Shown one piece after another: positions 2 through 29,688 of a DNA stretch of 33,459 nt. The translations under genes were made by a program, and so were the position numbers. The DNA comes from Rubrivivax sp. GTDB lineage: Bacteria; Pseudomonadota; Gammaproteobacteria; Burkholderiales; Burkholderiaceae_C. The first letter of the stretch is position 1. Every line of letters starts with the position of its first letter. The stretch is taken from the NCBI GenBank assembly GCA_016790395.1, contig JAEUPH010000045.1:1-33459 (forward strand), written 5' to 3'. The notes beneath the pieces are model-generated. The model was not told the DNA's origin and made no database searches. It saw only the letters and a program-made list of their open reading frames with translations.

Positions 2-442
2 AGCCACATCGTGATGATCTGCACCGGCACCGGTTCGGCGCCGATGCGGGCGATGACCGAGTGGCGACGCAGGCTGCGCAGCAGTGGCAAGTTCGAGAGC
101 GGCAAGCTGATGCTGTTCTTCGGCGCCCGCACGCGCGAGGAACTGCCCTACTTCGGCCCGCTGCAGAACCTGCCCAAGGACTTCATCGACTGCAACTTCG
201 CCTTCAGCCGCACGCCGAACGCGCCCAAGCGCTACGTGCAGGACGCGATGCGCGAGCGCGCCGCCGACCTGGCTGCGCTGCTGGCCGACCCCAACGCCTA
301 CTTCTACGTCTGCGGCCTGAAGGCCATGGAAGAAGGCGTGGTGATGGCCTTGCGCGACATCGCGCAGGGCGCCGGGCTGGCGTGGGACACTGTGGGTGCG
401 GCGCTCAAGCGTGAAGGCCGCCTGCACCTCGAGACCTACTGA
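2..442 (+). CDS. boxA: BoxA, reductase subunit of benzoyl-CoA 2,3-epoxidase (3' part)
   Basis: This is the C-terminal part of BoxA; the 5' end lies outside the window. BoxA is a flavoprotein that passes electrons from NADPH to the BoxB epoxidase, which forms 2,3-epoxybenzoyl-CoA in aerobic benzoate breakdown. The visible 146 residues are the NAD(P)-binding lobe of a ferredoxin-NADP reductase fold: an [13 protein letters not shown] nucleotide-binding loop near the left edge, the FFGAR segment, and [14 protein letters not shown], the typical C-terminal Cys-Gly signature of this family. The end RLHLETY is also typical of BoxA. The next gene starts 7 bases later on the same strand. The N-terminal ferredoxin part of BoxA cannot be checked here. 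The family call rests on recognition of the whole segment and is quite secure. Confidence 0.9.
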
Positions 443-449
443 CCCCGCC

Positions 450-1237
450 ATGCACACGCTCACGATCACGACGCGTCGCCCCGGCGTGGCGCAGGTGACG
501 ATGAACCGGCCGGAGGTCTTCAACGCCTTCGACGAAGCGATGATCGGCGAGCTGGACGCCGCCTTCACGCAGCTGATCGCCGACGACACCGTGCGCGTCA
601 TCGTGCTGGCCGGCGCCGGCAAGCACTTCAGCGCCGGCGCCGACCTGCAGTGGATGCAGCGTGCCAGCACCGCCAGCTTCGAATGGAACGTGGCCGACGC
701 GCGCCGCTTCGCCGGCATGCTGGCGCGCATCGAAAGCTGCGCCAAACCCACCGTGGCCCGCGTTCAAGGCGCGGCCCTGGGCGGCGGCGTGGGCCTGGCC
801 TGTGCCTGCGACATCGCCATCGCGGCCGAAAATGCCAGCTTTTCGGTCAGTGAAGCGAAGTTCGGCATCCTGCCCAGCGTCATCGGCCCCTACGTCACCA
901 ATGCGGTGGGCAAGCGGCAGGCGAAGCGGCTGGCGCTGACCACCGAGCGCATCGACGCCGCCGAGGCGCTGGCCCTCGGCCTGGTGCAGAAGCGCGTGGC
1001 GGCCGACGCGCTGGACGCGGTGGTGGACACCACCGTCGAACAGCTGCTGGCCGGCGGTCCGAATGCTCAGCGCGAGATCAAGACGCTCTTCGCGCAGCTG
1101 CACGTCGGCCCCGTGAGCCCCGAGGTCGTGGAACTCACGGCCCAGACCATCGCCCGCGTGCGCGGCACCGACGAAGCGCGCGAAGGCTTCGCCGCCTTCC
1201 TGGCCAAGCGGCCCGCAGGCTGGATCCCTTCCTCATC

Positions 1238-1241
<4 letters not shown>
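450..1241 (+). CDS. Enoyl-CoA hydratase/isomerase family protein
   Basis: This is a 263-residue crotonase-fold protein. The oxyanion-hole segments are SAGADLQ (about 61-67) and GAALGGG (about 107-113). The position matching the first catalytic Glu of classical hydratases (GGGxE) is Gly115, while the second catalytic Glu is present as Glu135 in SEAKFG. The sequence resembles the LiuC/methylglutaconyl-CoA hydratase branch. Its place between boxA and a 3-hydroxyacyl-CoA dehydrogenase suggests it isomerises or hydrates dehydroadipyl-CoA formed after benzoyl-CoA ring cleavage. That substrate is inferred from context, not seen in the sequence. The ATG at 450 was chosen because the crotonase domain begins right after it and it follows the boxA stop by 7 bases. 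The stop overlaps the next start (ATGA). Confidence 0.85.
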
Positions 1242-2767
<1,526 letters not shown>

Positions 2768-2778
2768 GCCCGATCGCC

Positions 2779-3981
2779 ATGACCCACGCCTTCATCTGCG
2801 ACGCCGTGCGCACCCCCTTTGGCCGCTACGGCGGTGCGCTGTCTTCCGTGCGCACCGACGACCTGGGCGCCATTCCGTTGCGCGCGCTGATGCAGCGCAA
2901 CGCCGGGGTCGACTGGGAGGCCGTCACCGACGTGCTCTTCGGCTGCGCCAACCAGGCTGGCGAAGACAACCGCAACGTGGCGCGCATGTCGGCGCTGCTG
3001 GCCGGGCTGCCGCTGGGCGTGCCCGGCGCCACCATCAACCGCCTGTGTGGCAGCGGGCTGGACGCCGTGGGCAGCGCGGCGCGTGCCATCAAGGCCGGCG
3101 AGGCGGGCCTGATGATCGCCGGCGGCGTGGAGAGCATGAGCCGCGCGCCCTTCGTCATGCCCAAGGCCGAGAGCGCCTTCAGCCGCAGCAACGCGGTCTA
3201 CGACACCACCATCGGCTGGCGCTTCGTGAACAAGCTGATGAAGGAACGCTACGGCGTCGATTCGATGCCCGAGACGGCCGAGAACGTGGCCACGGACTTC
3301 AGGATCGAGCGCGAGGCGCAGGACCGCATGGCGCTGGCCAGCCAGCTGAAGGCCGTGGCCGCGCAGAAGGCCGGCTTCTTCGACGCCGAGATCGCGCCGG
3401 TGACGCTGCCGCAGAAGAAGGGTGACCCCGTCGTCGTGAAGCAGGACGAGCACCCGCGCGAGACCAGCCTGGAAGCGCTGGCCAAGCTGAAGGGCGTGGT
3501 GCGGCCCGACGGCACCGTGACCGCCGGCAACGCCAGCGGCGTGAACGACGGCGCCTGCGCGCTGCTGCTGGCCAGCGAGGCCGCGGCCACGCGCCACGGC
3601 CTCACGCCGCGCGCGCGCGTGGTGGGCATGGCCACGGCGGGCGTGCCGCCGCGCATCATGGGCATCGGCCCGGCGCCAGCCACGCGCCGGGTGCTGGAAC
3701 TCACCGGCCTGAGCCTGGCGCAGATGGACGTCATCGAACTCAACGAGGCCTTCGCCGCGCAAGGCCTGGCCGTGCTGCGCGACCTGGGCCTGCAAGACGA
3801 CGACCCGCGCGTGAACCCCAACGGCGGCGCCATCGCGCTGGGCCACCCGCTGGGCGCCAGCGGCGCGCGGCTGGCCACCACGGCGGTGAACCAGCTGCAC
3901 CGCGGCGGCGGCCGCTACGCGCTGTGCACCATGTGCATCGGCGTCGGCCAGGGCATCGCCCTGGTGCTCGAACGGGTCTGA
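2779..3981 (+). CDS. pcaF: 3-oxoadipyl-CoA thiolase
   Basis: This 400-residue thiolase cleaves 3-oxoadipyl-CoA with CoA to succinyl-CoA and acetyl-CoA, the last step of the benzoyl-CoA, phenylacetyl-CoA and beta-ketoadipate routes. The nucleophilic Cys90 sits in NRLCGSGLDA, His356 in GHPLGASGAR, and the second catalytic Cys386 in CTMCIGVGQG. The segment GCANQAGEDNRNVARM (about 55-70) is characteristic of PcaF/PaaJ-type enzymes rather than general acetyl-CoA acetyltransferases. The ATG at 2779 lies 11 bases after the dehydrogenase stop and opens directly into the domain; a longer open frame upstream is out-of-frame shadow. It is the last gene of the + operon and faces the psiF-like gene. Confidence 0.92.
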   Translation: MTHAFICDAVRTPFGRYGGALSSVRTDDLGAIPLRALMQRNAGVDWEAVTDVLFGCANQAGEDNRNVARMSALLAGLPLGVPGATINRLCGSGLDAVGSAARAIKAGEAGLMIAGGVESMSRAPFVMPKAESAFSRSNAVYDTTIGWRFVNKLMKERYGVDSMPETAENVATDFRIEREAQDRMALASQLKAVAAQKAGFFDAEIAPVTLPQKKGDPVVVKQDEHPRETSLEALAKLKGVVRPDGTVTAGNASGVNDGACALLLASEAAATRHGLTPRARVVGMATAGVPPRIMGIGPAPATRRVLELTGLSLAQMDVIELNEAFAAQGLAVLRDLGLQDDDPRVNPNGGAIALGHPLGASGARLATTAVNQLHRGGGRYALCTMCIGVGQGIALVLERV

Positions 3982-3984
3982 ACG

Positions 3985-4000
3985 CGCGCCGCCCGGCGCG
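3985..4000. terminator. GC-rich hairpin between convergent genes
   Basis: CGCGCC (3985-3990) and GGCGCG (3995-4000) form a perfect 6-bp stem with a GCCC loop, in the 22-base gap between the thiolase and the convergent psiF-like gene. It could end transcription from both sides. There is no T-run on either side, so it is not a textbook intrinsic terminator. Confidence 0.45.
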
Positions 4001-4003
4001 GCT

Positions 4004-4294
4004 TCACTTCCCGTTGACGCAGGCGGCGATGAACTGCTTGCGCTCGACGTCCATCAGGTTCTGGTCGGCGGCCTTCTTGCTGCAGGCGCCCATGGCGGCA
4101 CCCCGCGACTGGTTGCGCTGCAGCGCGGCGGCGGAAACCATGCGGTTCTGGGGCGCGGCGGCCGAGGCCGGCGCCGCGGGCGCGGAAGCGGCCGCCGCCG
4201 GCTTCTTGCCGGCCTTGGGCGCCGGCTTCTGGCCCTCGGCGAGTGCCAGCATCGGCAGGCTCAGGATGAGGGCGGCAATCAGGGACTTGGACAT
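4004..4294 (-). CDS. Small exported protein with a PsiF-type repeat
   Basis: This is a 96-residue protein. Residues 1-19 form a clear signal peptide (MSKSLIAALILSLPMLALA), followed by an Ala/Pro/Lys-rich linker to about residue 50. The C-terminal segment has the pattern of a PsiF repeat: paired Cys about 25 residues apart (CSKKA...FIAACVNG) with a central ERKQF. PsiF proteins are small periplasmic proteins of unknown biochemical role, first noted as phosphate-starvation-induced in E. coli. The ATG at 4294 was chosen because it opens the signal peptide and has an AAGGTG ribosome site about 7 bases upstream; a longer in-frame extension has no such features. It is the last gene of the mof cluster, separated from the SCO gene by a hairpin, so co-transcription is possible but not certain. 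Confidence 0.75.
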   Translation of the reverse strand: MSKSLIAALILSLPMLALAEGQKPAPKAGKKPAAAASAPAAPASAAAPQNRMVSAAALQRNQSRGAAMGACSKKAADQNLMDVERKQFIAACVNGK

Positions 4295-4313
4295 CGTGGG
4301 CACCTTCTGTGGA

Positions 4314-4332
4314 GGCCGCAGCGGGTGCGGCC
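4314..4332 (-). terminator. Hairpin downstream of the SCO gene
   Basis: GGCCGCA (4314-4320) and TGCGGCC (4326-4332) form a perfect 7-bp stem with a GCGGG loop. It begins 5 bases beyond the SCO stop codon and lies before the psiF-like start. It lacks a T-run, so it may be a weak terminator or a processing/stability element within the operon. Confidence 0.45.
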
Positions 4333-4337
4333 CGGGT

Positions 4338-4964
4338 TCAACGGATTGAGGACTTGCGCGCTGGCGCCGCGGCCACCAGCATCGGGCGGAGCGTGTCGAC
4401 CAGCACCTTGGGACTTGCGAAGCCGTCCAGCCGGATCCAGGGCTGGCCGGGCGCGGCACGGACGAAGGTCACGGGCACGTGGTTCATCTTGTCGCCCTGG
4501 TAGGCGCCGAAGGAACGCTGGATGGCCACGGAGTCGGCCAGCGTGCCGGTGAAGAAGCTCCAGGAGCCGCCGCCGCCGAAGCGGCGCGCGTACTCGGCCA
4601 TGCGCTGCGGCGTGTCGTACTCGGGGTCGATGGACACCGTCACCGCATGCACGGCATCGCGGTCCTTGCCCAGGCGCTCGCGCACCTCGGCGAACACCTG
4701 CGCCGTCACCGGGCAGATGGCCGTGCACGAGGTGTAGACGAAATTCAGCATCACGGGGCGGCCGTCGTCCAGCGCCTGCTCGAAGCCCAGGCGGCGGCCG
4801 TCCTGCCGCAGCACGGACACGGCGGCCAGCCGCAGCGGCTTCTCGCTGCGCTTGAGGCCGCCGGCTGCAGAAGCGATGTGGGCCGAGTGGTCTTCGGCGA
4901 AAGCCGGTGCCTCGGCCGTCAGCAGCGCGCCGACGGTCAGGCAGGTGGTGAGGAACAGCTTCAT
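4338..4964 (-). CDS. SCO1/SenC-family copper chaperone/thioredoxin-like protein
   Basis: This 208-residue exported protein has a thioredoxin fold. A signal peptide covers about residues 1-23 (cleavage after AFA). The copper/redox motif is TSCTAICP with Cys80 and Cys84 (CxxxC), and the third copper ligand His162 sits in NHVPVTF. These are the three metal ligands of SCO proteins, which deliver copper to the CuA site of cytochrome oxidases or, in bacteria, to other copper enzymes. Residues 105-120 carry the usual VSIDPEYDTP segment. It lies 11 bases after mofC and in the same orientation. With no cytochrome oxidase genes in the window and a multicopper oxidase at the head of the operon, a role in metallating that oxidase is a reasonable inference. 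Confidence 0.88.
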   Translation of the reverse strand: MKLFLTTCLTVGALLTAEAPAFAEDHSAHIASAAGGLKRSEKPLRLAAVSVLRQDGRRLGFEQALDDGRPVMLNFVYTSCTAICPVTAQVFAEVRERLGKDRDAVHAVTVSIDPEYDTPQRMAEYARRFGGGGSWSFFTGTLADSVAIQRSFGAYQGDKMNHVPVTFVRAAPGQPWIRLDGFASPKVLVDTLRPMLVAAAPARKSSIR

Positions 4965-4975
4965 GGGGTTGGCTT

Positions 4976-6904
4976 TCAAGGCACGATCCAATCCGACGCC
5001 GCCTGCACTTCGCTGGCGGCCGCGTCGGCGAAACGCACCAGGTACGCGCCCTTGGACGCAAAGCGCTGGCCCTGGGCCAGGCTGAGGCGCGGGTAGACGC
5101 TGGTCCCTTCGCGCTTGACGCCGGTGTGGGCCTGCAGCCCGGGCATCGGGCGCACGGACTTGCGGAACTGCGACTGGCCGGCGGCGAGCCGGGCCACCGC
5201 GCCCTGGGTGCCGCCCTCCGCCTTGTGGTGGCGGGCCGTGGCCAGGCCGCGGGCCTCGTCCTCGGCCTTCTGGCCCTCGCGCAGGCTGAGCATGTTCTCG
5301 GCGCGCTCGACCAGGTAATCGCGGTGGACGTTGTCGATCATGTCGGTCAGCGTCTCGGCCAGGTAGCTGGTCGCGAAGTAGACCTCCGACTGCAGCGCCA
5401 GGTCGCGCAGCGCGATGCGGCGGATCTTCAACCAGGCTTCGAAGTGGAACAGCGTGGCATGGCGCTGCTCGGGCACCTGGTAGGGCGAGACGATCTGCAA
5501 CGCGGTCTTCCAGGTGGCTGGCAGCTGCTCGGGCTGGGCACCCAGCAGGCGTGCCGAGGCGTACACGGCCGAGACCCCAGGCGGCTCCACCGGCTGCAGG
5601 GCCGCCATCTGTTCGCCGGGCCACCACATCACCACCACGTCGCGGCGGTCCAGGCCCTGCAGCGCACGGCGCAGCTCGGCCGGCGCATCGCCCTTCACTT
5701 CCCGCGTCAGCAGCTGCGGCGGCGTCTTCAGCCGCGACAGGGCGGCGCGCAGGCGCTCGGTCGCGGCGCGGCCCGCCGCATCGCCGCGGTGCAGCTGCAC
5801 CACGCGCGCCGGCCGCGGCCCGGCCGACAGGTGCCGGGCCAGCACGTCGGCCTCGAGCAGCACGCCCGCCGAGAAGTACAGCGAATAGAAGTCCTTCTGC
5901 GCCTCGGGCGGCGGCGCATCGACGCTCGGGAACCAGCAGGGCGTCTGCTCGCGTTCGCAGAAGGCGTGCACGGGGCCCCACTCGCCGGCGCCCAGGCCCG
6001 AGACCAGCGCGAACACCGGCTGGCGGCGCATGTGCGCGTCCAGCTGCTCGCCCCAGGTGGACGGCGGGCCGCTGAGCGTCCACACGTCCAGGTCCCAGAA
6101 GCGGTCGCTGCGGAACAGCATCTCGGCGGCCGTGCTCATGGTGCGCTGGCCGGGCGTGAAGTTGCCGTTCTTCTGGCTCACGGCGGCGCGCAGCGTTTCC
6201 AGGAAGATCTCGCGCCGTTCCGGCGTGGTGTCGGGCGTGATCACGGTGGCCAGGCGCAGGCGCGTCGCGCTGACGCCCGGCGACCACTGCGCCGACAGCG
6301 TGCGCAGGTAGGCCTGCAGGGCCTGCAGTTCGGCCGGCCGCAGGTCGAAGCGCGGCATCATGGGGCTCAGCTCGCGGCCGTCGACATGCGCGCCCCCGTT
6401 CACGGCGGCGGCGAAGCTGCCGTCGTCGAAGGGCGCGTGGCGCTGGTTGAAGCTCTTGATGTTGCGGTAGTTCATCGACACCACCGCGCGCGGGTCGTCG
6501 GTGAAGATGATGCGGCCGGCCACCGGGGCCACCTGGTCGACGCCCTCCACGGCGCCCAGGCCGCTGCGGCGGTGGCAGGTCGCGCAGGCCACGGCCGCAC
6601 CCTGAGCTTCGACGCCGCCGAAGCGCAGGCCCATGACCTCGCGCCCGCCCTCGCCACGCCCTTCGCGGTAGATGCGGGCGCCCAGCGCCAGCTGGTGCTC
6701 GTCGGCGGGGGCCACGCGGGCCATCGCCTCATGGCCGGCCGGCCCCGTCCGCTGCGGCTGGTTGCGCAGGGCCACGGCCCCCGGGCCGCGCAGCGGCGCC
6801 GCGCCGTCGGCTGCCTGCGCGGCCGCCAGGCCGGGCACCAGCGCGGCGCCCAGGTGCAGGCTCACGAGCAGCGTGCGCAGCAGGGTGGGAAGCCAGGTCT
6901 TCAT
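4976..6904 (-). CDS. mofC: MofC-like protein: cytochrome c domain fused to a substrate-binding-protein-like domain
   Basis: This is a 642-residue exported protein. A signal peptide spans about residues 1-30. Residues 65-210 form a class I-like cytochrome c module with one haem site CATCH (107-111) and a probable axial Met in SPMMPRF. From about residue 215 to 530 the sequence (LRLATVITPDTTPERREIFLETL onward, later RDVVVMWWPGEQMAALQP and GVSAVYASARLLG) looks like a type I periplasmic binding protein fold of the kind that binds amino acids or amides. This second assignment is from pattern only. The gene follows the FKBP gene by 19 bases. In Leptothrix discophora the third mof gene encodes a haem-binding protein, which matches this position. 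It could accept electrons from the multicopper oxidase or sense a ligand; neither is shown by the sequence. Confidence 0.72.
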   Translation of the reverse strand: MKTWLPTLLRTLLVSLHLGAALVPGLAAAQAADGAAPLRGPGAVALRNQPQRTGPAGHEAMARVAPADEHQLALGARIYREGRGEGGREVMGLRFGGVEAQGAAVACATCHRRSGLGAVEGVDQVAPVAGRIIFTDDPRAVVSMNYRNIKSFNQRHAPFDDGSFAAAVNGGAHVDGRELSPMMPRFDLRPAELQALQAYLRTLSAQWSPGVSATRLRLATVITPDTTPERREIFLETLRAAVSQKNGNFTPGQRTMSTAAEMLFRSDRFWDLDVWTLSGPPSTWGEQLDAHMRRQPVFALVSGLGAGEWGPVHAFCEREQTPCWFPSVDAPPPEAQKDFYSLYFSAGVLLEADVLARHLSAGPRPARVVQLHRGDAAGRAATERLRAALSRLKTPPQLLTREVKGDAPAELRRALQGLDRRDVVVMWWPGEQMAALQPVEPPGVSAVYASARLLGAQPEQLPATWKTALQIVSPYQVPEQRHATLFHFEAWLKIRRIALRDLALQSEVYFATSYLAETLTDMIDNVHRDYLVERAENMLSLREGQKAEDEARGLATARHHKAEGGTQGAVARLAAGQSQFRKSVRPMPGLQAHTGVKREGTSVYPRLSLAQGQRFASKGAYLVRFADAAASEVQAASDWIVP

Positions 6905-6923
6905 GGTCGGGGCCTGCTGCTGA

Positions 6924-7691
6924 TCAGGACTTCACGCCCACCAGTTCGACCTCGAACACCAGCGTCTCGTTGGGGCCGATCACGGCACCGACCCCCCGCT
7001 CGCCGTAGGCCAGCGTCGGCGGGATCACGATCTCCCACTTGGCGCCCGTGGGCATCTGCTTGAGGGCCTCGCGCCAGCCCATGATCACCTGGTTGACGCG
7101 CAGCGGGGCGACCTTGCCATCCTCGGTGGCGTCGAACTCGACGCCATCGATGTTGGCGCCGCGGTACTTCACGATGACGGTCTGGCCCTCGGAAGGCTTG
7201 GCGCCGCTGCCCTGCTGCAGCACCCGGTAGGCCACGCCGTTGGCCAGCATCTGCACGCCGGGCTTGGCCTTGTAGGCCGCCAGGAACTCGGCACCGCGCT
7301 TGCGGTTCTTCTCGGCCAGGTCCTTCTGGTTCGCCGCCATGGCGCGGCGCAGGTCCGTCTGCAGGGCGTTGAGCACCAGGCGGATCTCCTTCTCGCTCAT
7401 GGCGAGGTCCTTGCCCGCGGCGGCGTCACGCATGCCACGCACGATCTCGTCGAGATCGAAAGGCACGTCGTTCTTCATGAAGTTGCGGATGGCCTGCACG
7501 CCGGTGGCGTAGCTGACCTTCTGCTTGTTGGCGGCCACCGTCGGCGTGGCGGCGGCGGGCGACGAAGCGGCGGCCGGCGCTGCCGCGGGGGTGGCCGGCT
7601 GCGTCTGCGCGGCCGCGGCGGTGGTCAGTGCGGCCAGGAAGCCGGCCCGCGCGAAGACGCGCAGGGGGTGGGTGGGGGCGGTGAGTCTCAT
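6924..7691 (-). CDS. mofB: MofB-like FKBP-type peptidyl-prolyl cis-trans isomerase
   Basis: This is a 255-residue exported isomerase with Mip/FkpA layout. Residues 1-28 are a signal peptide, followed by an Ala/Pro-rich linker to about 55. A helical dimerisation-type region follows at about 58-140 (KVSYATGVQAIRNF and charged helices), then a FKBP domain at about 145-255 with VIVKYRG, GWREALKQMPTGAKWEIVIPP and LAYGERG, the usual active-site segments. It should catalyse proline isomerisation in the periplasm. Position directly after the giant multicopper oxidase copies the mofA-mofB order of Leptothrix discophora, so a folding role for MofA is a sound inference. The ATG at 7691 lies 75 bases beyond the mofA stop, with a strong hairpin between them and no strong ribosome site visible. 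Confidence 0.85.
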   Translation of the reverse strand: MRLTAPTHPLRVFARAGFLAALTTAAAAQTQPATPAAAPAAASSPAAATPTVAANKQKVSYATGVQAIRNFMKNDVPFDLDEIVRGMRDAAAGKDLAMSEKEIRLVLNALQTDLRRAMAANQKDLAEKNRKRGAEFLAAYKAKPGVQMLANGVAYRVLQQGSGAKPSEGQTVIVKYRGANIDGVEFDATEDGKVAPLRVNQVIMGWREALKQMPTGAKWEIVIPPTLAYGERGVGAVIGPNETLVFEVELVGVKS

Positions 7692-7724
7692 GGCGATAAG
7701 TCCGGATGGAAGGGTCTGCGGGTC

Positions 7725-7758
7725 GCGGCGTGCCGGTGCTCGCCCACCGGCACGCCGC
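7725..7758 (-). promoter_or_regulatory. Strong hairpin between mofA and mofB
   Basis: GCGGCGTGCCGGTG (7725-7738) is exactly complementary to CACCGGCACGCCGC (7745-7758), giving a 14-bp perfect stem and a 6-base loop. It starts 8 bases after the mofA stop. No T-run follows on the transcribed strand, so it may act as a partial terminator or as an RNA 3'-end stabiliser that sets mofA expression above mofB-mofC. Confidence 0.7.
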
Positions 7759-7766
7759 TCACCCCA

Positions 7767-10700
7767 TCAGCGGGCGCGAACGATCACGCCGTTGGCGCCG
7801 GGGCCCCAGGCGGTGGCCGCGCCGGTGGCGTTGTTGACGGCGCGCACTTGCATGTACACGTCACGTGCCGCACCGCCCACCGCGAGCTGCTGGCTCGGGA
7901 GGGTCACGATCGGACCCACCCAGACCACCGGGCCGGTGGTGTTGCGGAAGCGAACTTCGTAGCGGGCCGCGGCGCTGTTGTTGCCGGTGAAGTTCAAGCC
8001 CGCGGTGACGACACCGCCGCTGGTGCCGTTGGCCGCCGTGACCGCCGAGGGCGCCGCCAGCGGCGTGCTCACGGCACGCACCGGGGAAGCCGCGGCGGCC
8101 ACGTTGGCGCCGTTGCGGGCCACCACGCGGACCTGGTAGTCCGTCAGGCCCAGCAGGCCGTTCACCGTGACGGTCGTGCCGTTGGTGGTGGCGGCCGTGG
8201 TCCAGGTGGCGCCACCGTTGGCCGAACCCTGGATCACGTAGCTGGAAGCCCCGCCCACCGGCGCCGTCCACGACAGGCCCACCGAGGTGCCCGTCGTGTT
8301 GGCGCTGACCAGCGGTGCGAGGGCCACGGCGTTGGCCAGCGTCCAGCTGTTGGACGTGGTCGAGTTGCCGCTGGCACCCAGCGCGTTGACCGCCCGCACA
8401 CGGAAGTAGTAGCGCGTGTTGGGCGCCAGGCCGTTGGCCGTGTAGCTGTTGGTCGTCACGCCGGGCACCGTCACCAGGCCGGCGGTGAAGTTCGCGTTGG
8501 TGGCGTACTCCACGGTGTAGCTGGTGGCGTTGGCCCGCACGTTCCAGCCCAGGGTCAGGCTGTTCGTGGTGGGCGCGCTCAGCGCCAGGCCGTTCGGCAC
8601 CTGCGGCGTGGCCATCTGCACCGAGCCGGAAGACAGCGTCGCCGACAGCACCTGGGCCGGGCTGGCCGCCTGCACTTCGAAGGTGACCCAGTTGTTGCGC
8701 GGCACGCTGATCGTGAGGCTGGTCGTGGCCTGCGGCGTCCAGGCGCTGAAGGCGCCGTTGTTGGCCCCGGTCCCGATGCGGGTGCGCACCAGGTAGTTGG
8801 CGGCATTGGCCACCGGCGTCCAGGCGAAGGTCGCGGAGACCGGGCTCGCGTTGGTCGCACCCGGCACCAGGGTCAGGCCGGCGGAGGTGGGCGCCACCAT
8901 CGGCGTGATGGCGGTGGCCGACGGCGCCGAGGTCGCCGAGCTGGCGGCCTGGCCGAGTTGCACGGTCGTCACCGGCGAGGCGGTCTCACCCACCACGTTG
9001 ACGGCCACCACGCGGTAGTCGACGGCCACATTGCCCGTGCCCAGGGCCACCACGCGGTAGGCGTAGCGGCTGCCGGCCACGGCCGTGGCGTCGGTGTAGC
9101 TGCTGGCGGTGGCGTCCAGCGGTTGCGCCGTCAGCTTGACGGGGGCCGCTGCCGGGTTGCTCACGTCGCTGCGCAGCACGTCGAAGCCCACCACGGTGCC
9201 GTTGGTCGGCTGGGGCGCCGGCAGCGTCCAGCTGATCTGCACCGAGGTGAAGCTCACCGCACCGGGCACCGGCGCGTTCGGCGTCACCGGCGCGTTGCCG
9301 CCGCCGGAGAGGGTGCTGACGTCGTCCACGTACTCGGTGGCGTTGGCCAGCGTGTTCACCTGGCCGTTGAGGCCGACGATGGAGTGCAGGTCGGTGCTCA
9401 GGTTCTCGAACACGCCCTGGCCGGCCGGGCCACGCTGCACGCGGAAGCCCACTTCGCTGGCGGCCGACGCGGCGACGTTGCCGCTGCCATCCACCGGCGG
9501 CGTGGGGTCGTTCCAGCTCAGCGTGACCAGGCTGCCGTTCACCACGGCCGTCGGGGCCGCCGAGGCCATCGGCACCGACTCACGGGCGTTGAACGACACC
9601 GGCCGCATGAAGTCGTTCTCTTCGTGGCCGAGGATGTGGCAGTGCCACACGTATTCCCAGCCGTAGTTCATCATGTCGTTGACCACGGTCTTGGGCGTGC
9701 CGGTGGTCGGGTCGATCTGCGTGAAGCCGAAGGGCGAACCGAGCGGCTGCGCGGGGTCCATCGGGCGCACGCTCAGCGGCACGCCGAAACCGGCGAGCTT
9801 GGGCGTCTTGGCCCGCACGGCGACGATGATGTCCTCCAGCGGGTTCATCTTCACCGTTTCCTTCCAGCCCAGCTCGTTGGGCAGGGGCGGCATGATGACG
9901 CCGGCCCAGTCCACGCGGTTGATGAGCTGCACGTTCAGCAGGTGGAAGTGCACCGGGTGCGTGTCCACGCCGTTGTGCGTGATCTTCCAAAGCTGGGTCT
10001 CGCCGTCGGCGAAGAGCTCGGTCGGCTCGTCCACGTAGCCCAGCGGAATGGTCGTCTGCGTCATCGCGCTGGTGAAGGGCAGTTCCACGCCCAGGGTCGC
10101 GTTCAGGCGGCCGTAGGTGGCGTCGAACAGTTCCTGGATGGCTTTCGGCTTCACCAGGATGCTGCCCGAGGGCGTGCCGGTGGCGAGGTCCGACTGCGCC
10201 GTGGCCGTCACGCCGGCGGCCGGAGCCGCCACAGTGACCGTGGCCACCTCGGCCGCACCGTAGCCGCGGCCGGCGTAGTCCAGGGTGATGTCGAACACCT
10301 TGCCGGTGGCCGTGGCCGCGGCACCCGTGCCGCCGCCACCCGTGAAGGTGACCTCGAAGGGGTTGACGGCCGCGTTCGGATCGAGCGACGTGAAACCGCC
10401 GCCGCCGGCCGTGTTGGGATTCTGCGGGTCGGCCGGGGTGAGGGTCACCTCGGTGACCTTGCCACGGCTGGTGGCGCGGGCGCCGGTGCCGCCGGTGAAG
10501 CTGACCAGGGGCGCGGCAACGTAGCCGGTACCCGCGTCGGTGATGGTGACACCGGTGATGGCACCGTTGCTCACGATGGGCGTCCCCGTGGCACGGCGGC
10601 CGCCGGCTGGCGGCGCCGTGAAGAGCACCGTGGCCGCGGCGGTGTAGCCAGTGCCGCCGGCGGTGATGGTCACGGCCTGCACGCCGAGCTTGGCGTCCGC

Positions 10701-13400
10701 AGTCGCGCCGTTGCCGCCGCCACCGACGATGGCCACCGTCGGCGCGGTGAGGTAACCCGTGCCGGCGGCGCTGAGGTGGATGGCCTCCAGCTGCAGCGTC
10801 GCCTTGGCCGTGGCCGCGCGGCCGTCGGCGGCGCCGCCGTTGGCCGGATTCGGCGCGCTGATCGTGACCGCGGGCGCATCGACATAGCCCGAGCCCTGCG
10901 TCAGCAGTTGCACGCTGTTGATGCCGCCGGTGGCGGGCTCACCCGGGGTGTACTTGAACACCGGCTCCTTCAGCGAACCGGTCTGGATGCGGGCGTAGCT
11001 CTGGTGCTCGGTCAGCGTGGCCCAGCTGGCGTCGAAGGCATCGGCATAGGCCGGTTGCGCGACGACGGGCTTCTCCTGCGAGCTGGCATAGGCCGCGCCG
11101 AGGGCCGTGTTGAGGGCCGCCACGTCCAGCGGCGCCGACACCGGGCCTGCGGGCAGCGCGCGGACCTTGATCTGCATCATCGTGCGGATGTTCGGGCCGA
11201 AGCCGGGACGCGTGTCCTCGGCACCACCGGCACCCGACTGGTCACCGACACCGGTGAAGGTGTCGTTGCGCGGGTCGCCCGCGGGGATGGGGGCACTGCT
11301 GTCGTTGTAGATGATCAGCGTCTGGCCCGCGTACTGCGAGAAGTCGATCACCACGTCGGCCCGCTCAGCCGGCGCCAGGAAGAGCGACGGCGTGTCCACG
11401 TTGAACACGTTGATGCGGCCCTTGTCCTGGATGTAGGTGATGGGGTTGGGCTCGATGCTGTGCACCTTGGGCAGCCAGCCGCCTTCGCTGGCGATCTGGT
11501 GGATGGCCGGGCCCACGCTGTTGGGGTCGGGCATGCCGCCCAGGCGGGCGTCCGTGGGCCACAGCTCGGGCTGGCAGAACATCTGCTTGCCCTGGGCGTT
11601 CAGCTTGGGCGAACCGTCGGCGTTGAAGATGGGGGAAGGACGCAGCTGTCCCGGGGTGCAGGCGTTCTCGGGCAGGGGCTGCGCCGCCGGCACCATGTCC
11701 ACTTCGGTGAAGTTGCCGTCATTGCCGGTCAGCACCGTGCCGTCGGCGAGCGTGGGGTTGTCCACCGCCTTCAGGATGTTGACCGTCAGCATGCGGTCGT
11801 TGGACGCGTTCAGCATGCGGAAGCGGTAGGTCGTGGGGTCCACCTCCAGCGTCGGGTAGGCCACGCCGTTGACGATGGGCGTGTCCATCCAGGCTTCCGG
11901 CGTGGTGGTCACGTCACCGTAGGCACCGCTGGGCAGCGGGTACAGGGCCGGGAACACGGGCCAGAAGTAGGGGCCGTAGTGCCAGCGGCCGACGGCGTTG
12001 GTGTTGTTGATCTGGGCTGGGTCCTGCACGGTCTCGTAGACGTGCGGGAACCAGCTGTCGCCGGGCGAACCCCAGTGGCCGGTGCTCCAGTGCGCGTCCT
12101 GCAGCGCGATGTCGTCGGGCACGAAGGTGCGGTCCTGCAGCACCAGCGGAATGGTGCGCTCGGCCGGCGGCAGCGCGCCGCTGCTCACCATCTGCTGCTC
12201 GGTCGCATCCGTGAGCAGGTAGCCCGAGGCCACGCCGGCGTACACGTTCAGGCGCGTCGCGCCGAAGGCGTGGTCGTGGTACCAGAGCATGCGGGCCGAC
12301 TGGCCGTTCGGGAAGTACAGCGTCCAGGCGCCGGCGCCCGGGTCGTTCATGTCGGGCACGTTCTGGACGCTGGCGCCACGCAGGAACTCGGGCAGCAGCG
12401 CCGGGTCGCGCGTCGGGTCGGCGGCGAACTCCTTGGCCAGGCTGCCGGTGGGCGACAGCGGGTCGGCCTCCTCGGCCGGCGTGATCCACTGGTGCGGCGT
12501 GCCGTCGCTGATCCAGGGCGTGTCGCCGCCGTGCAGGTGGACGTTCACGCGGTTCTGCGTGTACATCGTGATGCCGTCGGGGCCGAAGCCGGCACCCATG
12601 ATGGACGGGTCGGTGGGCAGGAACAGGTCACCGTTGCGCGCCTTCACCGAGCCGTCGGCGTTGTACTCGACGCGGCCGGCGGGCAGCAGGTTCATGAACT
12701 TGACGCGGGTGGGCACGTCCTTCGTGGCGGCGATGACCGGGCCCAGGAAGCGCGGCTTGTCGACCGCCAGCGCCGGCACCTTGAGCACCTGGCCGGCACC
12801 GCCCTTGAGGACCTTGCCGTTGGCGTCGGTGGCGGCGATGAGGATCGGCGCGCCGCTCGGGTACGTGAGCGGGTAGGCGGCACTGCCGGGCAGCGGCGCA
12901 CGGCCGTTGCTGGCCTCGTGGTCGATTTGCACGTAGCCGCGCAGCACCGTGGCCTTCTTGAGGTCGGTGTGGAAGCGGTCGGTGTACTCGACGACGGCAA
13001 TCTCGTAGTAGTCGTCATTGGTCACCGTGCCTTGCGGATTGCGCCACTTCGACGCCACGGCCACCGGGATGTACTTGGACGTGACGCCGTCGGCCATCAG
13101 CCGGGCGCTGGCGGCGCCGGGCAGCGGCAGCGGATCGATGAACTTGCGCAGCGCCTTGCCGGTGTAGCCGGGCACGCGGCCTTCGGCGGCGGCGATGGCC
13201 GCATCCTCGGGCACCGGGGTGATGCGCTGGCCGGAGGGGCTGTAGGCGAAGTAGGTCTGCAGGCGGAAGTTGGTGACGCCGTCCGGTCCCGTGGCGTCCA
13301 CGTAGCCCGGGCCTGCAAAGGCGGGGTGCAAGGCGGTGACGCCCGCCAGCGTGGCGAGGACCGCGGTGGCCATCTTGTTGAGACCGAAGTGCTTTTTCAT
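7767..13400 (-). CDS. mofA: MofA-like giant multicopper oxidase with internal GTGY repeats and fibronectin-III tail
   Basis: This is an exported copper oxidase of about 1877 residues; ordinary three-domain laccases have 500-600. The signal peptide is residues 1-29 (cleavage after AFA). Copper ligands: HLH at 288-290, HDH at 375-377 (LWYHDHAFG), HPVHFH at 1148-1153 and HCHILGH at 1253-1259, so all four trinuclear/type-1 motifs are present. In the last motif the place of the axial Met of CotA-type oxidases is Phe1264, with Met1265 one step later. Residues about 825-1065 hold five GTGY-type repeats between the cupredoxin parts, and 1270-1877 hold about six fibronectin-III-like modules. The order with an FKBP and a cytochrome c gene matches mofABC of Leptothrix discophora, linked to Mn(II) oxidation; substrate here is inferred. 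The ATG at 13400 opens the signal peptide and has a GGCAGG site upstream; an ATG at 13475 is possible but would bury it. Confidence 0.85.
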   Translation of the reverse strand: MKKHFGLNKMATAVLATLAGVTALHPAFAGPGYVDATGPDGVTNFRLQTYFAYSPSGQRITPVPEDAAIAAAEGRVPGYTGKALRKFIDPLPLPGAASARLMADGVTSKYIPVAVASKWRNPQGTVTNDDYYEIAVVEYTDRFHTDLKKATVLRGYVQIDHEASNGRAPLPGSAAYPLTYPSGAPILIAATDANGKVLKGGAGQVLKVPALAVDKPRFLGPVIAATKDVPTRVKFMNLLPAGRVEYNADGSVKARNGDLFLPTDPSIMGAGFGPDGITMYTQNRVNVHLHGGDTPWISDGTPHQWITPAEEADPLSPTGSLAKEFAADPTRDPALLPEFLRGASVQNVPDMNDPGAGAWTLYFPNGQSARMLWYHDHAFGATRLNVYAGVASGYLLTDATEQQMVSSGALPPAERTIPLVLQDRTFVPDDIALQDAHWSTGHWGSPGDSWFPHVYETVQDPAQINNTNAVGRWHYGPYFWPVFPALYPLPSGAYGDVTTTPEAWMDTPIVNGVAYPTLEVDPTTYRFRMLNASNDRMLTVNILKAVDNPTLADGTVLTGNDGNFTEVDMVPAAQPLPENACTPGQLRPSPIFNADGSPKLNAQGKQMFCQPELWPTDARLGGMPDPNSVGPAIHQIASEGGWLPKVHSIEPNPITYIQDKGRINVFNVDTPSLFLAPAERADVVIDFSQYAGQTLIIYNDSSAPIPAGDPRNDTFTGVGDQSGAGGAEDTRPGFGPNIRTMMQIKVRALPAGPVSAPLDVAALNTALGAAYASSQEKPVVAQPAYADAFDASWATLTEHQSYARIQTGSLKEPVFKYTPGEPATGGINSVQLLTQGSGYVDAPAVTISAPNPANGGAADGRAATAKATLQLEAIHLSAAGTGYLTAPTVAIVGGGGNGATADAKLGVQAVTITAGGTGYTAAATVLFTAPPAGGRRATGTPIVSNGAITGVTITDAGTGYVAAPLVSFTGGTGARATSRGKVTEVTLTPADPQNPNTAGGGGFTSLDPNAAVNPFEVTFTGGGGTGAAATATGKVFDITLDYAGRGYGAAEVATVTVAAPAAGVTATAQSDLATGTPSGSILVKPKAIQELFDATYGRLNATLGVELPFTSAMTQTTIPLGYVDEPTELFADGETQLWKITHNGVDTHPVHFHLLNVQLINRVDWAGVIMPPLPNELGWKETVKMNPLEDIIVAVRAKTPKLAGFGVPLSVRPMDPAQPLGSPFGFTQIDPTTGTPKTVVNDMMNYGWEYVWHCHILGHEENDFMRPVSFNARESVPMASAAPTAVVNGSLVTLSWNDPTPPVDGSGNVAASAASEVGFRVQRGPAGQGVFENLSTDLHSIVGLNGQVNTLANATEYVDDVSTLSGGGNAPVTPNAPVPGAVSFTSVQISWTLPAPQPTNGTVVGFDVLRSDVSNPAAAPVKLTAQPLDATASSYTDATAVAGSRYAYRVVALGTGNVAVDYRVVAVNVVGETASPVTTVQLGQAASSATSAPSATAITPMVAPTSAGLTLVPGATNASPVSATFAWTPVANAANYLVRTRIGTGANNGAFSAWTPQATTSLTISVPRNNWVTFEVQAASPAQVLSATLSSGSVQMATPQVPNGLALSAPTTNSLTLGWNVRANATSYTVEYATNANFTAGLVTVPGVTTNSYTANGLAPNTRYYFRVRAVNALGASGNSTTSNSWTLANAVALAPLVSANTTGTSVGLSWTAPVGGASSYVIQGSANGGATWTTAATTNGTTVTVNGLLGLTDYQVRVVARNGANVAAAASPVRAVSTPLAAPSAVTAANGTSGGVVTAGLNFTGNNSAAARYEVRFRNTTGPVVWVGPIVTLPSQQLAVGGAARDVYMQVRAVNNATGAATAWGPGANGVIVRAR
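10190..10935 (-). repeat. Five degenerate GTGY repeats coded within mofA
   Basis: This stretch of mofA codes for about five copies of a module of roughly 40-65 residues built around GxGYxxAPxVxxxGG followed by an Ala/Thr/Gly-rich run. The cores read GSGY, GTGY, GTGY, GTGY and GRGY in order of translation, at about 10890, 10760, 10640, 10520 and 10260. The repeats are protein-level; the DNA copies are diverged. They sit between the copper-site domains, not at the protein end. Confidence 0.75.
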
Positions 13401-13596
13401 GTGCCTGCCTGTCGAAGTGATCGAGGTTGAGAGTCCGTCTTGGCTGTTCGGGCCGGTATCGGGGGCATTGCCCACACGGCAGAATGAGTTCCGAGAACGC
13501 CGGAATTACGACTTTCCGGGTCACGGCCATTTCCATGGCGGGCTTGTCGCAATTACATGCAGATGACCTCGCGAGGGGTATGGGTTGTCAGTGCCC

Positions 13597-13632
13597 ACTG
13601 GGGGGCCGCACCCCCGGGGAGTCACCCCCAGT
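13597..13632 (-). promoter_or_regulatory. GC-rich inverted repeat containing a 13-mer shared with the gsp promoter
   Basis: ACTGGGGG (13597-13604) is complementary to CCCCCAGT (13625-13632), with a second C5G4 self-complementary tract inside. Positions 13630-13618 read TGGGGGTGACTCC on the transcribed strand. The identical 13-mer occurs upstream of gspG at 23951-23939 in the same orientation to its gene. It may be a regulator site or part of a folded leader. Confidence 0.55.
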
Positions 13633-13813
13633 CGTCAAGGTCCGGTTACAGCCGATTCATTCGCCACCGCCTGTGATGTCGCTGCGTTTCCCAGCAGAGA
13701 TCAGCCTCAGAGACACCGACGCCGACCACGTCAATACCTGAATTGAATGGGTAACTCTCCTACCGTCGATTAGGTTGGTCTCAAGCTTCGACCCCCCGGG
13801 TGCGTGGGGCAAA

Positions 13814-13828
13814 ATTAATGGTGATTAA
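13814..13828. promoter_or_regulatory. Candidate OmpR/PmrA-type site: paired ATTAA
   Basis: ATTAA (13814-13818) is repeated at 13824-13828 with a 5-base spacer, one helical turn apart (TTAA-N6-TTAA). This is the general form of sites bound by OmpR/PhoB regulators of the PmrA/QseB group. It lies in the AT-rich part of the mofA upstream region, about 415 bases before the start codon. Identification is by pattern only. Confidence 0.4.
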
Positions 13829-13841
13829 GGCCCTGTTGGCC

Positions 13842-13853
13842 AATTCGCGAATT
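13842..13853. promoter_or_regulatory. 12-bp perfect palindrome
   Basis: AATTCGCGAATT is a perfect palindrome in the AT-rich part of the mofA upstream region, 13 bases from the paired ATTAA element. It could be a dimeric operator. No regulator can be named. Confidence 0.35.
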
Positions 13854-13932
13854 ACGTCACTCGGCCTGTTGAGCGCGCGGACGTCCAGGGCGGCCGTGGC
13901 CCCGGGAAGCAGCGCCGCAGCGGCAGGGTCTT

Positions 13933-13965
13933 GGGCCCTCCCGGGCCCTGCGGGGCCTCGCCCCG
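13933..13965 (-). terminator. Tandem hairpins after the secretion operon
   Basis: Two stems lie just past the response-regulator stop: CGGGG/CCCCG (13951-13955 with 13961-13965, 5-base loop) and GGGCCC/GGGCCC (13933-13938 with 13943-13948, TCCC loop). They are well placed to end the long gsp operon ahead of mofA. No T-run follows. Confidence 0.5.
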
Positions 13966-13974
13966 GCGTCGGAA

Positions 13975-14646
13975 TCAGGCCGGATCAGAAGTGCCCGGCG
14001 CGGCCGCGACGCCCAGTTCGCGGGCCATCAGGCGCAGATCGATGGCGCTGCGCAGCCGCAGCTTCTGCATGACCGCGGCGCGGTGCTTCTCGACAGTCTT
14101 GTGGCTGAGCCGGATGCGCTCGGCCGCGGCGCGGTTGGTGTAGCCCGCGCCGATGAGCCGGAACACGGTGAGCTCGCGTTCGGTCAGGCAGGTCAGCGGG
14201 CCTGCAGCGTCGCGCATGCCCTGGGCATGGTCGGCCAGCACGAGCTGGCGCGAGTAGTCGGCGTCGAGGTACATCTCGCCACTGAGGACCGCGCTCACCG
14301 CCAGGCGCAGCTCGGGCGATGGCGCGTTCTTGCGCATGTAGCCGTTGCAGCCCGAACGCAGTGCGTCGCGCACCGAGGTCTCGTTGCCCTTGTCGCCCAT
14401 CAGCAGCGCGCGCTGCTGAGGCAGGCCGGCCTTGATCTGGCGCAGCGCCCACACGCCGCCTTCGGCCGGCAGGTGCAGGTCCAGCACGGTGAGGTCCGGC
14501 GACAGCGCCAGGGTCTGGTTCACGGCCTCCTTGGCGTCCTGCGCCACGGCCACGATCTCGAGCCGGTCGAGGTCCTGGAGCACGGCACACAGACCCAGGC
14601 GGACGAGGTTGTGGCCGTCGGCGATGACGGCTCTGCGTTTCTTCAT
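13975..14646 (-). CDS. LuxR/NarL-type response regulator with degenerate receiver
   Basis: This is a 223-residue two-domain regulator. The receiver covers about 5-120 with the phospho-acceptor Asp56 (VLDLHLP) and the conserved Lys106 (GYMRKNAP). The acidic pair is broken to Asp10-Gly11 (IADGHNLVR), and the switch Ser/Thr position is Gly84. The LuxR-type helix-turn-helix is at about 155-215 (LTERELTVFRLIGAGYTNRAAAERIRLS, then KTVEKHRAAVMQKL). The DNA-binding half looks intact, while the phosphorylation switch is unusual and may work without normal phosphotransfer. The gene is the last of the gsp operon, starting inside the pseudopilin stop (ATGA), and lies directly upstream of the mofA promoter region. 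No partner kinase is adjacent. Control of the gsp and/or mof operon is inferred from position only. Confidence 0.88.
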   Translation of the reverse strand: MKKRRAVIADGHNLVRLGLCAVLQDLDRLEIVAVAQDAKEAVNQTLALSPDLTVLDLHLPAEGGVWALRQIKAGLPQQRALLMGDKGNETSVRDALRSGCNGYMRKNAPSPELRLAVSAVLSGEMYLDADYSRQLVLADHAQGMRDAAGPLTCLTERELTVFRLIGAGYTNRAAAERIRLSHKTVEKHRAAVMQKLRLRSAIDLRLMARELGVAAAPGTSDPA

Positions 14647-15164
14647 GGCGACGAACTCGGCTTGCCAGGGGCGTGAGGGGCTGATGGAAGCCGGGCGAGG
14701 AAGCGCCAGTCGGCGTACGCGACGGCGTTCTCGAACCCGGTCTGGGTCTCGCGGAAGCCGGCCTTGCGGAAGGGCTCGCCCGGGGCCTGGCTGTAGACGC
14801 CGACGATCGCACCGCCCTGGCGCACCAGCCCCCATTCGAGGCTCGGGGCCAGCGGGTCGGCGTAGAGCCGCCGCAGGTGGCGGCGCGGCTGCGGGAAGCG
14901 CGGGTCGAGCAGCAGGTCGTCCAGGCTGCGCGGCAGCGCGCGCGCGCGCACCGGCGAGTCGCGCCAGTACGACTCGATGGCGGCGCGGAACTGCTCGCCG
15001 ACGAAGAGCAGTTCCTCTTCGGCCTCACGCTGGCGCTGATCGGCCCGACGCTGCCCGACCTGCGCCGCGGCCAGAGCCGCCAGCGTCAGCAGCACCAGCA
15101 CGCCGATGAGCACGAAGCCGCGCGCGGGGCGCCGGCCCAGCGACGGCGCGGCGGTGCGCCTCAT
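14643..15164 (-). CDS. Minor pseudopilin lacking Glu5
   Basis: This 173-residue protein has a prepilin-type start: a basic leader ending ARG, then FVLIGVLVLLTLAALAAAQ as the hydrophobic helix. Position +5 after the cleavage site is Gly, where almost all pilins have Glu. In type II secretion systems the tip protein GspK is the known exception, so this may be a tip-like minor pseudopilin, although it is much shorter than GspK. The remainder (EEELLFVGEQFRAAIESYW and a DPRFPQPRRHLRRLYADP segment) resembles pseudopilins of GspG-like build. Both ends overlap neighbours by 4 bases, so it is part of a coupled operon. The family name beyond pseudopilin is uncertain. Confidence 0.75.
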   Translation of the reverse strand: MRRTAAPSLGRRPARGFVLIGVLVLLTLAALAAAQVGQRRADQRQREAEEELLFVGEQFRAAIESYWRDSPVRARALPRSLDDLLLDPRFPQPRRHLRRLYADPLAPSLEWGLVRQGGAIVGVYSQAPGEPFRKAGFRETQTGFENAVAYADWRFLARLPSAPHAPGKPSSSP

Positions 15165-15607
15165 GATGGTGACCCCGCGGAAGCTGGCGCTGCGCCGCCC
15201 TCGGCCGCGGCGGGGTCGTCGATCCCCGGCGTGGCTGGCGAGGGCTTCACGTCGTAGACCATGCCGCGCTGGCCGCCTGGTGGCATCACCGTCACCCAGT
15301 CGGCCCGGTCGGTGAAGGGGTTCAGCGGCACGGCGCGGAGGTAGCGGCGCTCCACCAGTTCTTCCAGCCGGTCCGGGAACACGCCGCGGTCACCGTGGAA
15401 CTTGTCGATCGCCTCGCGCATCTGCGCCAGGTCGTGCGCCAGCACCTGGTGCTTGCCCCGCTCCAGCGTCGCCATGTAGCGCGGCAGCGCGATGGACAGC
15501 AGGAGCCCGAGCACGGCCATCACGACCACCAGTTCGATCATGGTGAAGCCGCGCCGGACAGGCGTCCGCCTGCGGCGGATGGAAGGAGTGCGCATGCCGT
15601 TCACCAT
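15161..15607 (-). CDS. GspG-like pseudopilin
   Basis: This 148-residue pseudopilin has a leader ending RRG, followed by FTMIELVVVMAVLGLLLSIALPRY with the conserved Glu5. The soluble part (HDLAQMREAIDKFHGDRGVFP, LEELVERRYLRAVPLNPFT, DWVTV) has the usual GspG-type pattern in which a short helix is followed by a conserved loop before the strands. The C-terminus is extended by an Ala/Pro-rich tail from about residue 122. It should be cleaved and N-methylated by a prepilin peptidase, which is not in this window. The ATG at 15607 overlaps the upstream stop by 7 bases; an in-frame ATG at 15595 is an equally possible start, and neither has a clear ribosome site. Confidence 0.82.
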   Translation of the reverse strand: MVNGMRTPSIRRRRTPVRRGFTMIELVVVMAVLGLLLSIALPRYMATLERGKHQVLAHDLAQMREAIDKFHGDRGVFPDRLEELVERRYLRAVPLNPFTDRADWVTVMPPGGQRGMVYDVKPSPATPGIDDPAAAEGGAAPASAGSPS

Positions 15608-16071
15608 TCGCGGTAGGGCAGGCCGTTGAGGCCCACACCCTCGGCCCGGCTGTAGATGTCGAAGACGTCGCTGCCTGCGGAGGGCGAGTCGGGTGCGCTG
15701 GCATAGCTGCGCAGGCCCCAGGTGGCCGCTGCAGGCAGCTCGGCGGGCGCGAAGGGATCGCGCGGCACGCGGCGAAGGAAGTACAAGCGCTCGCGCTTGG
15801 GCGAACGCACGTTCGGCACCCCCTCGACCAGGAGATTGAGGTCGCTCGGGTAGCCGCTGTCGCCCACGCGGCGCTCGATCTGGCCCTGGTCCGCCGCACT
15901 GCGGTAGCGGTCGAGCGCGACGCGGATCTCCCGCAGGGCCTCGCGCAGCTGCGCTTCGCGGCTGCGCTGCAGCGTCAGTTCGGCCAGCGGCAGGGCCATG
16001 GCGGCCATCAGGCCCAGCAGGGCCAGGGTGACCACCAGCTCGATGAGCGTGACGCCGCGGCGCAGTGTCAC
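15601..16071 (-). CDS. GspG/GspH-like pseudopilin
   Basis: This 156-residue pseudopilin has a very short leader (MTLRRG) and then VTLIELVVTLALLGLMAAMALPL with Glu5 in place. The following part has EAQLREALREIRVALDRYRSAAD and a loop ending RVPRDPFAP, similar to GspG-like proteins of type II secretion-related systems. The start overlaps the secretin stop by 4 bases (ATGA). It would be an inner-membrane-anchored subunit of the pseudopilus. The exact class (major or minor) cannot be set from sequence alone. Confidence 0.82.
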   Translation of the reverse strand: MTLRRGVTLIELVVTLALLGLMAAMALPLAELTLQRSREAQLREALREIRVALDRYRSAADQGQIERRVGDSGYPSDLNLLVEGVPNVRSPKRERLYFLRRVPRDPFAPAELPAAATWGLRSYASAPDSPSAGSDVFDIYSRAEGVGLNGLPYREW

Positions 16072-23895: not shown

Positions 23896-23938
23896 AGCCC
23901 GCGGGCCGCTCCCCCGCCTGAGTGGGCATCGATCCCCA

Positions 23939-23951
23939 GGAGTCACCCCCA
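23939..23951 (-). promoter_or_regulatory. 13-mer TGGGGGTGACTCC shared with the mofA upstream region
   Basis: Read on the transcribed strand of gspG, this sequence is identical to 13630-13618 upstream of mofA, and in both places a GGGG run follows within two bases. It lies about 155 bases before the gspG start. It is a candidate common operator. No known regulator motif was matched. Confidence 0.5.
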
Positions 23952-24083
23952 AGCCGAGACATCTGCACGTTCGACAAGCGCTTGCGAAGCGTCCGGCAAA
24001 CCCGGATGCGGTCAATGCCATGGCGCGGCAGCCACGTTTCGTGGCAATCTCGCGCCCTTCAGGAAGTACGTGGTGGGTGTGCC

Positions 24084-26812: not shown

Positions 26813-26875
26813 GGCGGGTCTCCTCTTGGGTTCTGGCAACACAGCCACAGTGATACGCCCCGTGCCAGGGCCCCG

Positions 26876-29615: not shown

Positions 29616-29688
29616 AACCCGCAGCCGGCGCGGGCGGCGGGGCCGCGGGTACACTCCCGCCCCCCTCGCGAGACACTCGCGCAAACCC

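Follow-up and report, generated by a model that had tools for sequence, protein, structure and literature searches.

The question raised by contig JAEUPH010000045.1 of Rubrivivax sp. (assembly GCA_016790395.1, positions 1 to 33,459, the whole stretch analysed and called the window below) is how a giant multicopper oxidase, MofA, is matured and brought out of the cell. MofA is among the oldest candidate manganese oxidases, and what is said of its activity, of its maturation and of the way it reaches the surface is still putative. Five genes at 4004-13400 on the minus strand make up a mof operon, namely mofA, mofB, mofC, an SCO copper chaperone gene and a PsiF-like gene. Directly upstream of mofA and on the same strand are genes of a type II secretion system (T2SS): gspG, gspF, gspE, small inner-membrane genes, a secretin with tetratricopeptide repeats (TPR), three pseudopilins and a LuxR-type regulator. 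The five-gene operon alone adds little, and its link with the T2SS is the part worth following. In our reading, which we consider probable, operon and T2SS together form a self-sufficient pathway for folding, metallating and exporting a giant copper oxidase of the cell surface, most likely one that oxidizes Mn(II).

One T2SS lineage recurs beside modules of MofC and SCO genes, in layouts that differ from locus to locus. The loci compared were 79 with a MofC relative, which represent the best 80 among 239 relatives identified and many of which end at contig edges; the MofC model comprises 29 loci and the window. T2SS genes of two or more kinds were found in 23 of the 79 and one kind in 3 more, while among the 30 loci with at least 8 kb on both sides 12 had at least two kinds. 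Gene maps place the T2SS set upstream of the module and in the same direction in Rubrivivax sp. A210, L064 and Sphaerotilus (L092), downstream in the same direction in, for example, L062, L069, L095, Rhodoferax lacus (L098) and L113, and downstream in convergent orientation in, for example, L063, L090, L091, L104, L108 and L122. A response regulator is found no more than 1.5 kb 3' of psp1, the gene of a pseudopilin-like protein, in 16 of 20 mof-linked loci.

MofC itself is patchily distributed, being present in 20 of 399 family genomes and in 5 of 60 genomes of the genus. A psp1 profile matched 94 of the 399 family genomes; it matched 15 of 20 where MofC is present and 79 of 379 where MofC was not detected (Fisher p 8e-7, relatedness ignored). 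The two surveys apparently covered the same 399 genomes, and the 94 psp1 positives were read by eye from the listing; G011 was scored as MofC-negative in this test, though a MofC-like protein (128 bits) and an SCO gene adjoin its T2SS. Of the 15 genomes that have both markers, 10 (G000, G019, G074, G091, G133, G163, G281, G330, G375 and G394) carry them on a single contig no more than 12 kb apart, against 0.18 expected. As a control, 20 T2SS stretches were fetched, 17 of them from genomes without a MofC match; no regulator adjoins the T2SS genes in any of the 17, one of which ends just after psp1. In each of the remaining three stretches (G011, G133 and G274) an SCO gene is close to the T2SS genes, joined in two of the three by a MofC relative. 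In a tree of 38 secretins all 21 module-linked rows fall into a single clade of 24 (support 98/97), and the labels require 3 changes as compared with a mean of 12.7 after shuffling, none of 500 shuffles being as low. This tree left out five duplicate loci (L037 and L039-L042), secretin matches below 300 bits and rows no longer than 350 residues, including the truncated row of A210 (L061). Secretin and MofC distances are correlated (Mantel r 0.46, a value reached in none of 9999 permutations), and shared ancestry alone could be the cause of part of that correlation.

Within the operon, mofA (7767-13400, minus strand, ATG start) encodes a giant exported multicopper oxidase of 1877 residues with fn3 domains. 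By eye, a Sec-like leader with AFA at its end was recognized. The four copper motifs are intact and in the order A-B-C-D, as HLHGG (288), WYHDH (373), HPVHFH (1148) and HCHILGHEENDFM (1253), with all copper ligands retained. The oxidase parts resemble CotA-type laccases and bilirubin oxidases in PDB, and the C-terminal part resembles fn3 domains. Between motifs B and C lies a series of GxGY repeats, with 6 copies in the window and 0-19 in relatives, which is perhaps a beta-rich surface insertion. After a gap of 75 bases follows mofB (6924-7691, minus strand), an FKBP-type peptidyl-prolyl isomerase gene (FKBP_C 83.7 bits, FKBP_N 75.9 bits in Pfam), and 19 bases further mofC (4976-6904, minus strand), whose product joins a monoheme cytochrome c (Cytochrom_C 26.1 bits, CxxCH) to a periplasmic-binding-protein type I fold. 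The AlphaFold2 model of MofC (pLDDT 81.1, pTM 0.79) gave periplasmic-binding-protein type I proteins as its top Foldseek matches, the best being 4kv7 (E 3.7e-11). The SCO1/SenC gene (4338-4964, minus strand, 208 residues) scores 72.2 bits in Pfam SCO1-SenC (cut-off 22.8), and its product carries CTAICP (CxxxC) and a distal histidine in DKMNH; in alignment CxxxCP is invariant (14 of 14) and the DKMNH histidine is found in 13 of 14. The last gene (4004-4294, minus strand, 96 residues) codes for a small exported protein. A scan of 3900-14700 for sigma-70 promoters and terminators returned no promoter and one terminator-like site, with 4.7 expected. A plasmid-borne MofA was rejected, a plasmid collection giving no match at 1e-20.

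A preliminary description of this DNA had proposed a mofABC-type order of oxidase, FKBP isomerase and cytochrome c, which the Pfam matches and the four copper motifs bear out, and had placed SCO 11 bases past mofC, which is exactly the distance from the mofC stop to the SCO ATG. It also named a PsiF-repeat gene after SCO. A small exported gene is indeed there; the confident name was dropped, since the PsiF_repeat match, over 25 residues, reaches 16.8 bits and the Pfam gathering cut-off is 21, so that the protein is called PsiF-like only.

The same description took SCO and PsiF for a novel extension of the operon. They had been in print: in Rubrivivax sp. A210 the operon is given as mofA, mofB, mofC, a copper metallochaperone and an exported protein without known function (PMC8218464). 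A paper of 2017 reported SCO genes for the ompB cluster of Geobacter as well as for two iron-oxidizer clusters resembling mofABC, and noted in words the likeness of MofC-like proteins to the periplasmic-binding-protein fold (PMC5566968). The preliminary description thus correctly rediscovered a known operon in a congener, and a mof operon of five genes, SCO and a PsiF-like gene among them, is not new in itself. Because the five genes stand in identical order in A210, the arrangement in the window is not due to chance. The tie of the mof operon to T2SS genes, on the other hand, seems unreported. No report of a T2SS gene cluster linked to mof operons was found in the literature searched, which mostly lacked subscription papers and is weak evidence of absence; one paper holds mofA, manganese and type II secretion together, the last only within its reference list.

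Among the 79 loci MofA and MofB occur together in 40, MofA only in 9, MofB only in 9 and neither in 21. In 43 of the 79 an SCO gene shares the strand of mofC and is no more than 3 kb from it, 29 times downstream and 14 times upstream; of the 41 mofB loci with at least 1.5 kb downstream, 24 have it on that side. As the commoner partner of mofC, SCO looks ancestral to these loci as judged from gene neighbourhoods, and its description as a gene added locally was rejected. A PsiF-like match after mofC or SCO was found in 9 of 79 loci. SCO and mofC are also paired where other large proteins replace MofA, four of them with a Cu-oxidase_3 match.

Several relatives of MofA depart from the window protein. 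In six of 40 aligned relatives (L102, L078, L069, L074, L075 and L038), giants that resemble MofA, copper ligands are gone from each of the four motifs, with degenerate forms such as HLVGG, FYQDR, NSIHFD and GSAILGH, and a seventh (L072) has lost its ligands in part. In L102 (551-4714 and 4718-9784) the non-copper giant stands directly after an intact mofA, giving a pair of one active and one non-copper protein. In a Rhizobacter genome (L099, 1441-2088 and 29-1663) a two-component pair (68% and 47% identical) adjoins mofA with no T2SS genes between, and the T2SS of this genome is on a separate contig beside a second SCO-MofC pair (L128).

We propose a module of two parts, in which the five-gene operon supplies the substrate and its maturation. 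MofA would be exported by Sec, MofB would aid its folding in the periplasm, and SCO, with MofC as an electron-carrying partner, may help to load or reduce its copper; delivery of copper to MofA by the operon's SCO is plausible. T2SS transport folded proteins out of the periplasm. Folded and metallated MofA would then cross the outer membrane through the upstream atypical T2SS, under the LuxR-type regulator, and at the surface would oxidize metal, most likely Mn(II), a substrate whose assignment in the literature is putative. An oxidase that acquires its fold and its copper in the periplasm before it passes the outer membrane would depend on an isomerase, a copper chaperone and an exporter of this kind, and genes for all three are present. 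We infer these biochemical steps throughout, and secretion of MofA by the linked T2SS is suggested by the linkage together with the analogy of Geobacter OmpB, which is reported to be homologous to MofA (PMC5566968) and to require a Pul-type atypical T2SS for secretion (PMC3543383). More broadly, we lean somewhat towards a transferable biogenesis-export cassette for giant surface cuproenzymes in several proteobacterial orders, comprising an atypical and distinct T2SS, a LuxR-type regulator, SCO and MofC, in which the oxidases would be interchangeable (a branch with MofA and mofB, and an Ig/cadherin-type branch). If so, the T2SS would be the unexplained route of Mof-type oxidases to the sheath or surface, and the mof operon would so far have been described minus its export half. 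A dedicated T2SS would give a testable account of the enzyme's exit from the cell, and its secretin and psp1 subfamily with the regulator would serve as a marker for working mof copies.

A number of results weigh against a dedicated T2SS and a fixed set of maturation genes. Fewer than two kinds of T2SS gene were found within about 10 kb in 18 of the 30 long-flank loci, psp1 is missing from 5 of the 20 MofC genomes, and the psp1 profile was itself built from module-linked rows. The T2SS family is broader than the modules: the 17 T2SS loci of MofC-negative genomes lack MofA, MofB, MofC and SCO, and three secretins from such loci sit inside the module clade, one of them from a locus that stops just past psp1 so that its neighbours are not visible. 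No SCO occurs within 3 kb in 17 of the 41 loci that have mofB and 1.5 kb downstream. These results leave room for an ordinary five-gene mof operon beside which a general housekeeping secretion system lies by chance, as do the 79 MofC-negative genomes with the same T2SS family and the T2SS loci with other neighbours. We regard this as unlikely, given that the two markers are co-located far more often than expected, that the secretin clade is nearly exclusive to the modules despite their differing layouts, and that a regulator stands beside psp1 in most linked loci and in none of the 17 controls. The genome of the window also has five further GspE-like matches, the best 49% identical, another point against it.

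The SCO gene, for its part, might serve the CuA site of cytochrome c oxidase or general copper and thiol homeostasis and merely be parked in the operon. SCO proteins classically act on CuA, and in the genome of the window, a draft that is 75% complete, the SCO of the operon is the only PF02630 match found. Its pairing with MofC in over half of the loci, on either side, is unlike that of a parked gene, and we hold this explanation to be the least probable of those considered. A good deal more room must be left for MofA acting in vivo as an Fe(II) or organic oxidase, or in OmpB-like electron transfer to solid metal oxides, instead of as a Mn(II) oxidase, though we still think it doubtful. MofA is termed a putative manganese oxidase with an unverified role, OmpB is reported to be necessary for reduction of Fe(III) oxide (PMC5566968), and the related loci include those of iron-oxidizer genomes (Ferriphaselus and Ca. 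Ferrigenium). Against this, A210 oxidizes Mn, and its MofA homologue clusters with Mn-oxidizing multicopper oxidases in a tree (PMC8218464). 

The genes upstream of mofA begin with the LuxR/NarL-type response regulator (13975-14646, Response_reg and GerE), which stands between mofA and the T2SS genes, 574 bases (13401-13974) from mofA. All of the following are likewise on the minus strand: pseudopilin-like psp1 (14643-15164, no match in Pfam or NCBIfam, the family being conserved in alignment), the pseudopilins psp2 (15161-15607, N_methyl 32.2 bits) and psp3 (15601-16071, N_methyl 24.5 bits), the atypical GspD-like secretin with TPR (16068-18239, Secretin 139 bits), a small open reading frame at a T2SS position between the secretin and the next gene (18236-18781, no Pfam match), a GspM-like gene (18778-19332, T2SSM_b 18.8 bits, under the cut-off of 21.7), a PilN/GspL-like gene (19329-19928, PilN 26.3 bits, cut-off 22.8), a protein in the PilM/GspL position (19874-20665, no Pfam match, its role judged from position and its homologues in the same place in relatives), the GspE-like secretion ATPase (20643-22280, start approximate, T2SSE 407 bits), the GspF-like platform protein (22268-23323, start approximate, T2SSF 146 bits) and the GspG-like major pseudopilin (23346-23786, T2SSG 146 bits). 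Secretin, T2SSE, T2SSF, T2SSG and PilN satisfy their Pfam cut-offs, while the NCBIfam equivalog cut-offs are missed by GspD (179 of 351 bits), GspE (470 of 630) and GspF (195 of 424), from which the gene set is classed, by profile scores, as an atypical member of the T2SS/type IV pilus superfamily and not as canonical Gsp. Divergent from it on the plus strand are an OmpR-type response regulator (23922-24794, start approximate, Response_reg 89.3 and Trans_reg_C 76.9 bits) and its partner sensor histidine kinase (24515-26290, start approximate, HATPase_c and HisKA), which occupy the equivalent position in A210.

The mof operon, T2SS genes and two-component pair form one block, roughly 23 kb long and in the window's order, in A210 as well, and the block is absent from a third congener, G195 (L197). 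By blastn, window positions 172-3989 and 26972-29305 match L197 1-3801 and 3821-6220 (80.8% and 73.5% identity), so that the left flank (thiolase, to 3989) and the right flank (a CopA-like ATPase, from 26972) are 19 bases apart there. Some 23 kb with approximate limits of 3990 and 26971, holding the mof operon, T2SS, both regulators, the kinase and a DUF1924 cytochrome, are thus missing at this site. Three more congeners with the left flank had no mof gene within the 4-14 kb fetched past it. In A210 the flanking genes of the window were not found in the stretches fetched (8.9 kb past psiF and 14 kb past the kinase). Either gain or loss of the block may account for the difference. G+C content is alike, at 71.3% within the block and 71.5% and 73.5% outside it. 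A wrongly binned contig was rejected, the beta-oxidation genes at 1238-3981 matching same-genus genomes, at best 79-82% over nearly the full stretch in four. At the inner edge of the block lies the DUF1924 haem protein (26396-26848), with no counterpart in the loci searched, and adjoining the block is the CopA-like copper P-type ATPase (26964-29768, CPC, two HMA domains). The latter is counted as flank because it directly follows the thiolase in G195; a conserved link with mof was rejected, as it is kept in G195 without the block and has no listed match in L037-L135.

The closest known system is that of Rubrivivax sp. A210, taken to be of the same GTDB genus as the window. It has the same five genes in identical order (L061; MofA 70.5% identical over 1850 residues, MofB 71.5% over 246, MofC 70.6% over 622 and SCO 61.2% over 206) and likewise T2SS, regulator and two-component genes upstream of mofA, while its genomic site differs as far as fetched. 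The words secretion and pseudopilin are absent from its paper (PMC8218464). MofA of A210 is 59% identical to that of Leptothrix discophora (PMC8218464). For L. discophora SS-1 the likeness is by description only, in the order of oxidase, FKBP isomerase and cytochrome c and in that of the copper motifs (PMC8218464, PMC5566968), and mofABC alone is described for it; no L. discophora record occurred among the loci and collections searched, and the window is linked to it through A210. The modules of L045, L046 and L132 share SCO and MofC homologues with the window, and the first two also the T2SS family and regulator. They differ in having SCO before mofC and, in place of the MofA architecture, large multicopper-like proteins whose domains are of the Ig, cadherin or DUF11 type; no MofA or MofB was found in them by profile. 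In Geobacter the T2SS genes are presumably not adjacent to ompB, and the source study for OmpB secretion by a Pul-type T2SS is said to be that of Mehta et al. 2006. The ompB cluster of Geobacteraceae lacks mofB and, like the window, has a MofA-homologous oxidase with MofC-like and SCO genes (PMC5566968). The Pul/Oxp system of the same family resembles the window by description, secretion there depending on an atypical T2SS that has several pseudopilins (PMC3543383), and a T2SS dedicated to MofA would connect the mof literature with the work on OmpB secretion in Geobacter.

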